Positions 1-28,490 of a stretch of DNA of 64,000 nucleotides are shown here, in pieces; the first letter of the stretch is position 1; each line of letters starts with the position of its first letter. The notes beneath the pieces are model-generated. The model was not told where the DNA came from, searched no databases, and saw only the letters and a list, made by a program, of their open reading frames with translations. The stretch is from Chryseobacterium gleum (GTDB lineage: Bacteria; Bacteroidota; Bacteroidia; Flavobacteriales_D; Crocinitomicaceae). Location of the stretch: positions 1-64,000 of the forward strand of contig CAMDFX010000003.1 in the NCBI GenBank assembly GCA_945897805.1, in the 5' to 3' direction. The translations under genes were made by a program, and so were the position numbers.

Positions 1-1678
1 CCGTGTAATCATGTGTTTCTCCATAGGTACCTGTTGAGCAACCATTTGCACTCGTCCAGGTTGTAAAGTATGCTCCTCTGACTCTCATTCTGTGATTTCC
101 CAATGTTGCAGTACCTGAAATAGAAATACTACTTGTAGTAGTACCTGTACTTGAGGCAGCAAAATTACCAAGGAATTCCCCTGCATCTGAAAAGCTTCCA
201 TTGTCATTATAATCTATCCACCATCCAAAAGCATCACTGATTAAGTAAGCACTTGTGATTGTAAATGAGTAGTTTCCTCCTTGGGCAAAATTTACAGTTG
301 TACCGGTGTAGTCGGTATAACCTGTCGAACAGCCGGTAGCTGTTTGATTCAGATTAGAAACGGAGATATTATTAATATAGCCATAAGAACAAGCTGGAGA
401 TTGCAATGATGTGGTGCAATATGTTGCCGGAGGTGCCGATGTAGTCTGACTATTGCTTGCCTGTGTTATGGGCCTGAACCAGCATGGGCCACTGGTGTTT
501 TGATAGGCTATTACCCAGTAATAATATGGAGTACTGGCCGTTAAGCCGGTGCTATTAAATGCTACAGAACTGCCAAGGGTTGTTGTGGTATTTACCACTG
601 TATATCCTGCCACAAAAGTAGTACTGCCTGCTGTAGGTAATGCAGTACCTGATGCAGGGGCTGTAGGTGCGGTGTTGGTTGTACTTCTGAGCACTACATA
701 GCCGGTTGCAGTATTACCACCATTTGTATAAGTAACATTGGTGGTGGTGGTGGTGGAAGCAACGCTGCTGAATGCCTGGAAAGATACGGTGCCGTTGGGT
801 GCCGTGCAAGAACCACCAATTGTGCCTGTAAATAGTTGAAATGCAGGTAAAGTGTTAGCGCTACAGCAACTTGAAGAACTTGAACCACTGCCACATGAAG
901 GACCACCTGTCCAAGAGGCAGAACCAGAGGATGCAAAAGCTGCTGTTGAATTATACCAAGTTGGGTCGCTTCCCCCCGTAGAGGTGTATTCTACAAAAAT
1001 TGTAAGTGCTCCAGCTGAATTGAGATTTGCACTGAAGTTGGTCGTGAATGGTATTACATACCATGTATTGGCTGTAAAAGCTGACCCTGAAAGTGCTCCC
1101 GAATATACTTGAGTTGCTGATGCAGTATTCCATGCACTTGTTGCGCTGGCGGATACTTGCATCCAAATGGTTAAAGTACCTGTCAAAGTTCCCGTGGTGC
1201 TTGGTTGCCATGCAATTCCTGTGTAGGTAGTGCTGGCATTTGGAACGTTGGGAGCATCCTGTGCTCTCAAAGCTGCACCTTGGTAACTTTGAATGCTTCT
1301 GGAGCACTTTGTCCCAGTTGATGTTCTATCAATAGGCTGATTAGTATTAGTTGACACACCTATTGTACCAAAAGTAGTAGTAGTCTGCCCTTGCACATTA
1401 AAACTATGCAACCCACCGAATAATAGCAGCAGCGCATAGATTTTTAATCCGGCAAACCGATTCGAAGTAATAAACGGAGAGCGGCTCAAAGATTTCGCAG
1501 AGCCAACGCTCGCGTCACTTTCTATAAATTGTGCATTTGCTTTTACATGCTTCCAATTAAAAAGAACTGTATTTTGAAACAGTTTTCTGAAGATATCAGC
1601 AAACGGAGATATAAAAAAGTAAATCAGAGTTGCGATTGAACGTAAACTTTGTTTAAGATTCGAGTAGCGTTTTAGCAT
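1..1678 (-). CDS. GEVED-domain surface protein, 3' end outside window
   Basis: The minus-strand frame is open from an ATG at 1678 to the window edge, giving at least 559 residues. A stretch rich in Ser, Thr and Gly contains a fibronectin-III-like part (about residues 290-400). It is followed by a GEVED-type domain recognisable from WIDYNDNGSF, HRMRVRGAY and GETHDYT near the edge. The hydrophobic signal-like segment YALLLLFGG lies unusually deep, at about residues 78-98, and ends in NVQGQ. A TTG at 1489 would give a normal 35-residue signal peptide start, so the ATG may be too early. GEVED proteins of this phylum are usually secreted adhesins or enzymes with a C-terminal T9SS tail, but the tail cannot be seen here. 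Catalytic activity, if any, is unknown. Confidence 0.8.
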   Translation of the reverse strand, partial: MLKRYSNLKQSLRSIATLIYFFISPFADIFRKLFQNTVLFNWKHVKANAQFIESDASVGSAKSLSRSPFITSNRFAGLKIYALLLLFGGLHSFNVQGQTTTTFGTIGVSTNTNQPIDRTSTGTKCSRSIQSYQGAALRAQDAPNVPNASTTYTGIAWQPSTTGTLTGTLTIWMQVSASATSAWNTASATQVYSGALSGSAFTANTWYVIPFTTNFSANLNSAGALTIFVEYTSTGGSDPTWYNSTAAFASSGSASWTGGPSCGSGSSSSSCCSANTLPAFQLFTGTIGGSCTAPNGTVSFQAFSSVASTTTTTNVTYTNGGNTATGYVVLRSTTNTAPTAPASGTALPTAGSTTFVAGYTVVNTTTTLGSSVAFNSTGLTASTPYYYWVIAYQNTSGPCWFRPITQASNSQTTSAPPATYCTTSLQSPACSYGYINNISVSNLNQTATGCSTGYTDYTGTTVNFAQGGNYSFTITSAYLISDAFGWWIDYNDNGSFSDAGEFLGNFAASSTGTTTSSISISGTATLGNHRMRVRGAYFTTWTSANGCSTGTYGETHDYT

Positions 1679-25075: not shown

Positions 25076-25228
25076 ATGAAACTTAAAAAGCCAGGAACTG
25101 TGTTGCAACCCATCGAGGAGCCAAGAAAAGGTTGGGGCGAAGCATTTCAACAGATGCACGAAAATGGTGATGATTCGCTTTTGATTGACGATTTTTTCGA
25201 CGATGAAAATTTCGCAGAATGGAGCTAA
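25076..25228 (+). CDS. MazE-type antitoxin C-terminal fragment
   Basis: The 50-residue frame reads KPRKGW-like at the front (EEPRKGWGEAF) and continues QMHENGDDSLLIDDFF, ending DENFAEWS. This is the toxin-binding tail typical of MazE/SpoVT-AbrB antitoxins in this phylum. The N-terminal DNA-binding swapped-hairpin domain is missing, and no MazF toxin follows, because the next gene is convergent and its stop overlaps this one by 2 bp. It is either a stand-alone antidote peptide or a truncated gene. It lies 32 bp after the hemB fragment. Confidence 0.6.
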   Translation: MKLKKPGTVLQPIEEPRKGWGEAFQQMHENGDDSLLIDDFFDDENFAEWS

Positions 25229-26838
25229 AGTTTTATAAAACGAGCATTTTGAGAAAAATCATTGTGATTAAATAAGCGCACGATATAACAACCTGATTCG
25301 AGTTCATTAATATCGATATGCACCAATTGATTTACTTGATTTTCACATTTAACTTTCTTAATCAATTTTCCTTCAAGGTCATAAAAAGCAATATATGATT
25401 CATTATCTTGTACTTCGATATTGAGTTCTATTGTAATATTTCCCTCTGCAGGGTTTGGATAAATTGTCATGTTTGGAAAAGTGTTACCAATACAATCGAC
25501 CGAAACAACATCAAAATACTCTTCCATGCCGTTAAAATCAGTTTGCTTTAACCGGTAATAATTAACACCTTGAAGCGGATCAGGGTCGGTATAGGAATAA
25601 TTAATTGTTTGAGAGTTATTTCCTGCTCCTTGAAATGTTCCAACTTCTTTAAATAATATTCCATCTTGCGTGCGCTCTAATGTGAAAAAGTCATTATTGT
25701 TTTCGGACGCTGTAGCCCAGGTAATAATTGCTTTACTATCTGCACAATTGGCCTCAAAGTATAGTAATTCGATGGGGAGTGGTGAAGTTCCATTGCTTAC
25801 TGTACCGATGTAAAATGTGTTTGAAAGGTTCGAGGTAGAAAGTCCATTTCTATTTACTTCCAAAGGTGTATTGTGACTTGTTGCGGCAACAAAATTTCCC
25901 ACAGCATTTGTCGCTGAGGATATGTTTAAATCAACAAGTAAAAAAGGACTGAATCCAGTTCCACCAAATCGCATTGAAATATTAGAACCGCTGGAATTAA
26001 ACCCATTCGCTGTCGATACAACCCAAGATGAATTTGATATGTGTTGAACCAATGTTCCGCCTGCCCAAGAAGGATCTATGTAATACGTTGGATTTACATG
26101 AGAAGGATAAATAGGATTGTGCACAACACTGATCGTTCCCCCAGAAGTCAACGCAGCAGACCATCCTTGCCACAGCGGTCTGTAATCAATTGTAGATGTT
26201 CCCATTGGGAAATGACCTACAGATGAAGGGATTGTAGTTGCCACAACATTGTCAAACCAACGTGTAAATGTACCGCCATAAAGCCAACCCGAAGAGTATG
26301 AAAGTGATCCAGGCAGTGTTGCTGATGTTCCAAGTGTAAGCGTGAATCCTGCGAGGTTGGTCTTTCCTAAGGTCATCGTCAGATTATTTTTTGCAGTTAC
26401 GTTTGATCTTAAAGTAATTTGCGGTGATATTGGAAAACTGTTATTTATGGAAATATTATGAAATTCTAAATCACCATTTCCACCTATTTTTTGTTGACCA
26501 ACACCATGGAAGTTTACATTACTGGTGCCACTAAAAAATGTTCCAGTATTCAAAAAATCACCTGCAATATTGTAAGTACCATTACCTAAGGTGGTTCCTG
26601 CATTGCTGATAGTAGAAGTGTTTATAATTCCATCATTGGAAATGGTTGCGGAATTGTTAATTTTGATCGAATCGAATCCAACAACTGTCCCTCCTAGAAT
26701 CGAAATATAAGCAGTGTTGTTAGAGATAATTTGTGCGTTTATTCTCGGTATCGATAAAATAAAAATTGCACAGAAAATCAAAAAAACATTTTTGGGAAAT
26801 GTTTTTGAGCCTTCTATACTTTTTAGATTAATTGACAT
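25225..26838 (-). CDS. Large secreted adhesin-like protein with T9SS tail
   Basis: The 537-residue protein has a signal-like segment (FLIFCAIFILSIPRINAQ) followed by Asn/Thr/Ser/Gly-rich beta sequence suggestive of a surface adhesin or beta-helix. The region LPIELLYFEANCADSKAIITWATASENNNDFFTLERT-like (about residues 350-390) is the fibronectin-type block that commonly precedes T9SS tails. The tail itself spans the last 80 residues, from MTIYPNPAEGNITIEL to ARFIKL. It is exported by T9SS and lies 35 bp downstream of the ice-binding-like gene, so the two form an operon. Ligand unknown. Confidence 0.8.
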   Translation of the reverse strand: MSINLKSIEGSKTFPKNVFLIFCAIFILSIPRINAQIISNNTAYISILGGTVVGFDSIKINNSATISNDGIINTSTISNAGTTLGNGTYNIAGDFLNTGTFFSGTSNVNFHGVGQQKIGGNGDLEFHNISINNSFPISPQITLRSNVTAKNNLTMTLGKTNLAGFTLTLGTSATLPGSLSYSSGWLYGGTFTRWFDNVVATTIPSSVGHFPMGTSTIDYRPLWQGWSAALTSGGTISVVHNPIYPSHVNPTYYIDPSWAGGTLVQHISNSSWVVSTANGFNSSGSNISMRFGGTGFSPFLLVDLNISSATNAVGNFVAATSHNTPLEVNRNGLSTSNLSNTFYIGTVSNGTSPLPIELLYFEANCADSKAIITWATASENNNDFFTLERTQDGILFKEVGTFQGAGNNSQTINYSYTDPDPLQGVNYYRLKQTDFNGMEEYFDVVSVDCIGNTFPNMTIYPNPAEGNITIELNIEVQDNESYIAFYDLEGKLIKKVKCENQVNQLVHIDINELESGCYIVRLFNHNDFSQNARFIKL

Positions 26839-26873: not shown

Positions 26874-28490
26874 CTATCTAACCATGGTTAGGGTTAGTAT
26901 TCTGTTGTTTACACCAACCTGCGCACCGTTATCTGAAACCTGTGTATCAACTTTCCACCTAACCTCAATAGTTTGTCCAGCTGTAACTGTAGAAATTGCT
27001 TGTAAAAAGACATCTGATGACGCAGATAAGCTTGTTCTTGTTCTTTCAGAATTAGGAATCAAGACACCATTTGCATAAAGACTAAACGTAGCCACATGAT
27101 TCACTGGAGTAACTACATTAGTACTACCCTGTTGATATATAGTTCCATTAACAACGGTGCCTGCAGCTGTAAAACCTGTAATAGCTCCTGAATTACTAGC
27201 AATATCACCATTAAAAGTTGAGATTGTAGTATTGCCAATACCGCCACTGCAAGTATATAAAACAAAGGAAGCTAAACCCCTTAAATTGACAAGAGAAGAA
27301 GGGTTTACTGGTGTTGAAATTATTCCCGGTCCAAAAGCAACAGCGCCTAACTTAGTGAACATTCTTCCAGTTATTTTGCAATTTGCACCAGCAGCAACAG
27401 CCCCAGCATTAGAGATCATAGTGCCTTGAAGAGTAGTGTTTGCACCTAAACCTATTGCGTTTTGTGCTAGCCAAAAAACATTTTCTGGTTTTGCTCCGTT
27501 TGTTAAAATAACTACAGTCCCCGCACCGGTATTAAATGCCCCAACACACTTCATTATAAATAAAGGATTAGTAAGTCCTTGACCATTTAACCTAAGCGTA
27601 TCTGCTATAGACATAGCACCGGCAACAGCATAAACTCCTGGTCCAAGAATTTCCCCACTTCCAAAAATAAGAGGATGCGCACTAGTTGTTGGGATATTAA
27701 TTAAATCATTATAAATCAAACTTAAATCTGTGCAAAGATTAGCTGTGCTAACTCCAACTGTATGAATAGCATTTGGTACGTCGCATTGTGCACTAAAACT
27801 AACACAATAGGTTCCTGCACCTGGTGTTACAGTTACACCTGTCATTTGCACATCTGTAGTTGAAGTAGTTGTAATATTTGCTCCTGAATTAACAGAACTA
27901 TATCCATCTGTATTTGCCAGCACAAAAGCTGTAGTAGCCAATTGAGTTGTATTTGTTCCTATAACTGCTGTCGGGGCTACAGGAGTTCCTGTAAAAACTG
28001 GAGAGTCAGAAAACACGACCGATGCTGTTCCTGTTTCATTGGTTAACGCTGTTGATAAACTTGAGGAAGTAAAAGAACCTAATGTTGCGGCATTGCCTAC
28101 CGATATTACTTCACCAGTAAGGTCAGAATTACTGTCCGATTTTAAAGCAATCCATTGAATTCCATTGAAGAAATTGAACTGATTCGTTGATGTATTATAA
28201 GCCATCAATCCACTTGCTGGAGAACTAATAAGATCTCTTTCAGCTTGAGTCATACGAGGAATCAGCATCCCTTTGGTAGTCGTCCTCATTTCAAGTATCG
28301 ATGATGGGTCTGGAATAATAGCAGCACCGCTTATCCCCATTGACTGCCCATTTGTATTACTCGCGTTAAAGAATAAAGCGAGTAACAAAATGAATGAAGG
28401 TAAGAGATGTAGAAAACTAAATTTTAAACTTTCCGTTATTCTATTTTTGAATAACGTTTTATTTTTCTGTAATTGCTTTTTCTTGTTCAT
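26874..28490 (-). CDS. Surface protein with ice-binding-like (DUF3494) domain inserted in a jelly-roll domain
   Basis: The 538-residue protein has a signal-like segment at about 28-48. Residues 58-120 match an N-terminal module common in this phylum (SILEMRTTTKGMLIPRMT, QFNFFNGIQW), and 160-195 are tail-fibre-like. Two pieces of a C1q/TNF-like jelly roll occur: 196-240 (VTVTPGAGTYCVSFS) and 463-538 (LYANGVLIPNSERTRT, GQTIEVRW). Between them is a DUF3494 ice-binding-like domain whose C-terminal half (248-390: ILGPGVYAV, ENVFWLAQNAI, CKITGRMFTKLGAVAF) precedes its N-terminal half (400-458: LASFVLYT, STFNGDI, AITGF). That order is reversed from the usual one. No T9SS tail is seen. Ice binding is not proven. 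Confidence 0.75.
   Translation of the reverse strand: MNKKKQLQKNKTLFKNRITESLKFSFLHLLPSFILLLALFFNASNTNGQSMGISGAAIIPDPSSILEMRTTTKGMLIPRMTQAERDLISSPASGLMAYNTSTNQFNFFNGIQWIALKSDSNSDLTGEVISVGNAATLGSFTSSSLSTALTNETGTASVVFSDSPVFTGTPVAPTAVIGTNTTQLATTAFVLANTDGYSSVNSGANITTTSTTDVQMTGVTVTPGAGTYCVSFSAQCDVPNAIHTVGVSTANLCTDLSLIYNDLINIPTTSAHPLIFGSGEILGPGVYAVAGAMSIADTLRLNGQGLTNPLFIMKCVGAFNTGAGTVVILTNGAKPENVFWLAQNAIGLGANTTLQGTMISNAGAVAAGANCKITGRMFTKLGAVAFGPGIISTPVNPSSLVNLRGLASFVLYTCSGGIGNTTISTFNGDIASNSGAITGFTAAGTVVNGTIYQQGSTNVVTPVNHVATFSLYANGVLIPNSERTRTSLSASSDVFLQAISTVTAGQTIEVRWKVDTQVSDNGAQVGVNNRILTLTMVR

Follow-up and report, generated by a model that had tools for sequence, protein, structure and literature searches.

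A DUF3494 domain with swapped halves inside a jelly roll, in a Bacteroidota protein and in phage tail-fibre-like relatives

Introduction

Ice-binding proteins with the DUF3494 fold are widespread among microbes, and the coil order of this fold has been called unique to it. In the solved canonical structures the coils follow the order b1-b6-b5-b4-b3-b2, so that b1 lies beside b6 (PMC7966756, PMC7277481; also PMC12337378). The window analysed here, a stretch of DNA of 64,000 nucleotides, encodes a 538-residue protein in which, according to a preliminary description, the C-terminal half of such a domain precedes its N-terminal half and the whole unit interrupts a C1q/TNF-like jelly roll. The locus raises the question of whether one domain has been circularly permuted and inserted into a loop of another, or whether two incomplete tandem domains simply follow each other, and what such a protein would do.

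Order of the DUF3494 halves

The gene is read on the minus strand (28490-26874), and the residue numbering used before fits this 538-aa ORF; the boundaries first proposed (248-390 and 400-458 for the two halves, 196-240 and 463-538 for the jelly roll) agree with the profiles and the predicted fold to within a few residues. The features are collected in Table 1. The mature protein probably starts near QSMGIS, judging from the sequence. Residues 50-121, the sole stretch matched in many genomes of the bacterium's own family, are also present on the viral contigs L053-L056. The shaft matches PHROG tail fiber families (E 3.2e-8, 1.4e-6 and 2.3e-6) over a short stretch only.

Table 1. Features of the permuted gene and of its downstream neighbour, in coordinates of the window
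Feature	Residues	Coordinates	Strand	Basis
Whole gene, 538-aa ORF with permuted DUF3494 within jelly roll		26874..28490	minus	Full-length relatives
Probable signal peptide	1-49	28344..28490	minus	Sequence reading, long hydrophobic stretch
N-terminal adaptor module	50-121	28128..28343	minus	Matches in family genomes and viral contigs
Shaft	145-192	27915..28058	minus	Resembles phage tail-fibre proteins (PHROG tail fiber families)
Jelly-roll part 1	196-240	27771..27905	minus	Strands 5-45 of predicted model; TNF/C1q fold matches
DUF3494 C-terminal half (long helix, b2-b6)	248-387	27330..27749	minus	C-half HMM; VIA Z 17-21 to solved IBPs
Stretch with small-residue row A318, A345, A364, A383		27342..27539	minus	Mapped to IBPv domain B ice-binding row
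Linker from C-half to N-half, 18 residues	388-405	27276..27329	minus	Between half-domain matches
DUF3494 N-terminal half (b1), after the C-half	406-454	27129..27275	minus	N-half HMM; pLDDT about 92
Jelly-roll part 2	463-538	26877..27104	minus	Predicted model; TNF/C1q fold matches over both flanks
Next gene downstream, 537-aa secreted protein with type IX secretion C-terminal sorting domain		25225..26838	minus	PF18962 E 1.7e-13

Half-domain HMMs were made from 50 canonical DUF3494 domains of related bacteria and searched separately. The C-half HMM matches residues 248-387 (i-E 2e-44) and the N-half HMM residues 406-454 (36.2 bits, i-E 2e-10), and the linker between them is indeed short, at 18 residues (388-405). 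When residues 391-538 were shuffled 1000 times, the N-half score reached at most 10.9 bits, against 36.2 for the natural sequence. The matches and the shuffle scores therefore place the C-half ahead of the N-half far above chance, confirming the order that had been proposed. Since 248-387 precedes 406-454, and the canonical order is N-half, helix, C-half, we term the domain a circularly permuted DUF3494 variant and not a canonical member. The only Pfam match of the natural protein is Ice_binding (PF11999; 79.7 bits against a cutoff of 28.7), with an aligned range (194-385) in which jelly-roll residues are drawn onto the profile's N-half. Rearranging the halves into canonical order raised the PF11999 score to 94.5 bits, and the C-half alone gave 85.4 bits.

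The split jelly roll and its predicted structure

The protein was modelled with AlphaFold2 as a monomer, from related sequences only. With 22 rows of relatives the mean pLDDT was 88.6 and the pTM 0.71, the N-half reaching about 92; with only four close relatives the pLDDT was 52.8 and the N-half unusable. The jelly roll covers residues 1/4..346 of the model, so both flanks contribute to it, and the earlier claim of a C1q/TNF-like jelly roll split by the DUF3494 unit is borne out by a model in which the two flanks form one jelly roll. In VIA-align comparisons the flanks match the TNF-like lectin 9ib7 with Z 15.1 and rmsd 2.1 (115/133 residues, model range 4..346), and TNF-like lectins, BclA, ExsFA and C1q match both flanks together. 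Model residues 52-204, a beta-helix with a long parallel helix, match solved DUF3494 proteins with Z 16-21 and 146-155 aligned residues, in comparisons by sequential structure aligners, which cannot reveal a permuted match. The N-half is predicted with high confidence in the same model, and its stacking on the C-half is what we infer from the canonical fold. In Foldseek, the alignment of the model with the tandem IBP 5UYT extends over about 215 columns, but its rmsd is about 17 Å, whereas most C-half matches to IBPs lie at 1.4-2 Å; this is consistent with an N-half that does not occupy the position of the tandem's domain 2.

When the flanks were joined without the insert, they matched BclA_C (PF18573) at E 1.7e-5 and 25.1 bits, below the gathering cutoff of 38, and the joined flanks of a divergent relative (L071) matched it at E 9.6e-5. 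Because the score is under the Pfam cutoff, we claim the same fold and not membership of BclA_C. No significant match to the joined jelly roll turned up in a sequence search of the PDB. An uninterrupted version of the jelly roll, sought in the bacterial family, produced weak matches only (best E 0.001), and the viral scan recovered only the known members; as no convincing uninterrupted jelly roll was found in these scans, the empty insertion site could not be aligned.

Relatives in bacteria and viruses

The permuted arrangement was found in five Bacteroidota genomes of four families, namely the window genome, L024, L071, L090 and L217. Within the window's own family, 2 of the 240 genomes carry the permuted protein. 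L024, a Flavobacteriales MAG, has three tandem paralogues with 75-78% identity and the same order of halves (contig CANCQX010000067.1). Wider samples, at the level of order, class and phylum, yielded L071 (G356), from another family, and L090 (G652) and L217 (G909), from two further families of the class, all of them permuted and with jelly-roll flanks. In L071 a collagen-like Gly-X-Y stalk, containing a masked run of N, stands ahead of the jelly roll. Beside the permuted gene of L217, a short ORF (1065-1397) holds the tail of an N-half and the C-terminal part of a jelly roll, a fragment of a second copy. The window genome has seven canonical DUF3494 domains elsewhere, with a cluster of single and tandem genes at G000:C9:93844-101177.

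The gene for the type IX secretion system (T9SS)-sorted protein lies 35 bp downstream of the permuted gene on the same strand, and it also adjoins the permuted gene in L024 (71% identity) and L090 (59% identity). Since it is kept in three genomes, the gene pair looks like a unit, and the secreted protein is a possible partner of the permuted one.

Among viruses, IMG/VR scans with alignments revealed about 20 contigs in which a permuted DUF3494 interrupts the jelly roll (L104, L109-L115, L172-L176, L184, L188 and L190-L194; in L188 and L194 the N-half was seen in the alignment and not called by the HMM). A viral scan with the single protein as query gave no match, and INPHARED phages had no tblastn match to the insert or to the joined jelly-roll flanks either. 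The permuted heads often tip collagen-like or tail-fibre-like proteins. Three scanned proteins with collagen stalks (L110, L172 and L194) match PF01391 and tail-fibre PHROGs, and terminase, portal or DNA polymerase genes lie near the permuted heads or on the same contigs in some cases. A permuted DUF3494 also occurs as an insert in a tail-sheath protein of L134 (1880-4741; PHROG 279, E 1.7e-25) and, by reading, in a look-alike of it in L169 (948-aa ORF at 1877). The two inserts seemingly share the same sheath site, and their C-halves come from different tree positions. The 473-aa lipoprotein-like protein of L105 (2276-3700; also L106-L108), encoded between the genes for the terminase large subunit and the portal, has a permuted DUF3494 and a jelly roll that is apparently lost or replaced. 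A 155-aa mini-protein (L173:3602-4066) keeps the N-half and the C-terminal part of the jelly roll, most of the DUF3494 C-half being gone.

The swapped arrangement is thus a real, inherited design, found also in other bacteria and in phage tail-fibre-like proteins. Sequence profiles, the predicted structure and the conservation of this layout among independent genomes all support the circular permutation and loop insertion suggested by the preliminary description, and the arrangement, going beyond that description, is common to bacteria and phages.

Proposed architecture

We propose, with a probability of about 0.7, that the protein is a secreted adhesin of fibre type, with a permuted DUF3494 beta-helix that projects like a finger from a probably trimeric jelly-roll head. 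The N-terminal adaptor and the tail-fibre-like shaft would carry the C-terminal TNF/C1q-type head. One complete permuted DUF3494, running from the long helix and coils b2-b6 to coil b1, would sit in the jelly roll of this head, in a loop that links two early strands. In the canonical domain b1, at the N-terminus, stacks on b6, at the C-terminus. If b6 is linked to b1 and the chain is cut between b1 and the helix, the result is an ordinary, uninterrupted beta-helix; the order helix-b2-b3-b4-b5-b6-b1 would form a regular one, with b1 stacked directly on b6 and both chain ends at one pole. Ends at one pole suit insertion into a loop, from which the domain would stand out as a finger with its faces free for binding to surfaces, and adhesion would be the work of this finger. 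The role of the arrangement is probably to hold the binding finger out from the fibre tip. Published split domains from which ligand-binding domains project, both termini lying on the same side, provide a precedent (PMC12077191, PMC10865825).

Ligand of the permuted head

Mutagenesis of IBPv showed that full thermal hysteresis depends on the row A364, A391, A410 and G429 of its domain B (PMC5673226). This row maps to A318, A345, A364 and A383 of the permuted protein, and an AAAA row is present in 22/25 permuted, 39/78 canonical bacterial and 1/44 canonical viral domains. Because this small-residue row is conserved, ice is a plausible ligand of the permuted head, and the protein might be a secreted antifreeze whose fibre binds ice, in freeze protection or in holding cells to ice, with the trimer giving avidity. 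Such a function would agree with the PF11999 match above cutoff, with a row whose mutation in IBPv impairs thermal hysteresis, and with the seven canonical domains of the same genome. However, phage tail-fibre-like proteins, in which ice binding has no obvious use, share both the head and the Ala row, and DUF3494 has also been described in ice-free habitats (PMC12337378). The conserved row may partly reflect the fold or shared ancestry. We consider an antifreeze function a serious possibility that falls somewhat short of even odds. A ligand other than ice, on a cell surface or elsewhere, has about the same likelihood, above all in the phage members. Ice is unlikely to be the universal ligand of permuted heads, because phages use the same head, and this use speaks for adhesion in a broader sense.

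Origin of the permutation

A tree of 147 C-halves was built from few columns and without an outgroup, and its bootstrap is unsettled. In this tree, 24 permuted C-halves, of the jelly-roll and L105 types, form one group (86/86), within which the bacterial heads are scattered among the viral ones. This intermingling would fit a bacterium that domesticated a phage tail-fibre head, the head binding a ligand on cell surfaces, for instance a glycan. The match of shaft residues 145-192 to PHROG tail-fibre families, the patchy presence in bacteria (2/240 family genomes) and a jelly-roll fold common to TNF-like lectins point in the same direction. Nevertheless, no phage-like genes were found among the neighbours of the permuted gene checked by Pfam, and the pairing with a T9SS-sorted secreted protein, kept in three genomes, also speaks against such a descent, which we entertain only tentatively.

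The two sheath C-halves stand apart from the permuted group, inside a canonical viral clade (100/99), and the well-supported branches of the tree force at least three label changes. From this tree, we consider it likely that DUF3494 was permuted separately at least twice, in each case in connection with insertion into a host domain. Permutation of DUF3494 could then be a route taken repeatedly when the domain enters loops of fibre or virion proteins, with at least two origins, one in the jelly-roll head lineage of Bacteroidota and phages and the other in phage tail sheaths, each giving a regular beta-helix finger that is anchored at one pole and possibly still binds ice; we regard the chances for and against this generalisation as evenly balanced.

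The permuted group adjoins domain 1 of Bacteroidota tandem IBPs (82/55). This weakly supported position, and the straight alignment of the swapped stretch through C1-N2 of the tandem IBP 5UYT, might be seen as signs that the protein is a remnant of a two-domain IBP, in which domain 1 has kept its C-half and domain 2 its N-half, as two incomplete tandem domains that form no single beta-helix. However, the inspected permuted proteins have one C-half and one N-half each, and this arrangement has long been retained over bacteria and phages at about 30% identity. The linker is 16-19 aa long in permuted proteins and 21-37 aa in real tandem IBPs, the N-half is confident in the predicted model, and the rmsd to 5UYT argues in the same sense. 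We consider such a remnant improbable as a description of the present protein, although it may well be the genetic route to the permutation. Trees of the C- and N-halves were not strong enough to show that the permutation came from a tandem duplication. The permuted form might also be the ancestor of the canonical one, although the midpoint-rooted tree, which has no outgroup, nests the permuted group inside canonical sequences. An assembly or gene-fusion artefact can be dismissed with near certainty, since the reading frame is intact and separate assemblies, of five bacterial genomes and about 20 viral contigs, show the same architecture.

Comparison with known systems

DUF3494, the TNF/C1q jelly roll and split-domain adhesins are known kinds, combined here in a new way. 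With the DUF3494 (PF11999) IBPs, such as IBPv (5UYT), FfIBP, LeIBP, TisAFP and AnpIBP, the permuted protein shares the C-half beta-helix and long helix (Z 17-21), an N-half recognisable by profile and the small-residue ice-binding row. It differs in its swapped halves, with sequential coils in place of b1-b6-b5-b4-b3-b2, and in lying inside another domain, whereas canonical copies are free-standing or in tandem. A natural permutant with sequential coils makes the role of the odd coil order in folding and ice binding directly testable.

The jelly roll resembles those of the BclA C-terminal domain, of C1q, of TNF-like lectins (PLTL 9ib7, BC2L-C) and of ExsFA/BxpB, which in several cases sit on collagen-like stalks, as do the heads of L071 and of phage members. 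In contrast to these, the jelly roll here has about 220 residues inserted behind an early strand, and its sequence match to BclA_C is under the Pfam cutoff. In the split domains of RTX adhesins (MpIBP, FrhA, AhLap), a ligand-binding domain likewise buds from a split domain with its termini on one side. Those split domains are mostly Ig-like and bear PA14, vWFA, RTX or peptide-binding domains, whereas here a jelly roll of TNF/C1q type, not an Ig-like domain, bears a permuted DUF3494. The permuted head is a ready-made display of an ice-binding-type finger on a fibre.

In the literature searched, mostly outside subscription journals, no description of a permuted DUF3494 was found, either for ice-binding proteins in general or in connection with bacteriophage. 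DUF3494 with collagen repeats is a known Pfam combination in sea ice, reported with no mention of a permuted order (PMC9957290). Phage collagen-like tail fibres and the PF11999 genes of viral contigs that have been described as cryoprotective auxiliary genes (PMC11515562) offer a parallel in that PF11999 is phage-borne. Judged by their architecture, the present viral proteins form fibre tips or sheath inserts, and they resemble structural or receptor-binding proteins more closely than products of auxiliary genes that protect the host. Some of the viral PF11999 genes credited with host cryoprotection may thus encode tips of virion fibres.

In L162-L164, canonical-order DUF3494 copies were also observed in very long phage frames, possibly those of baseplate-type proteins.
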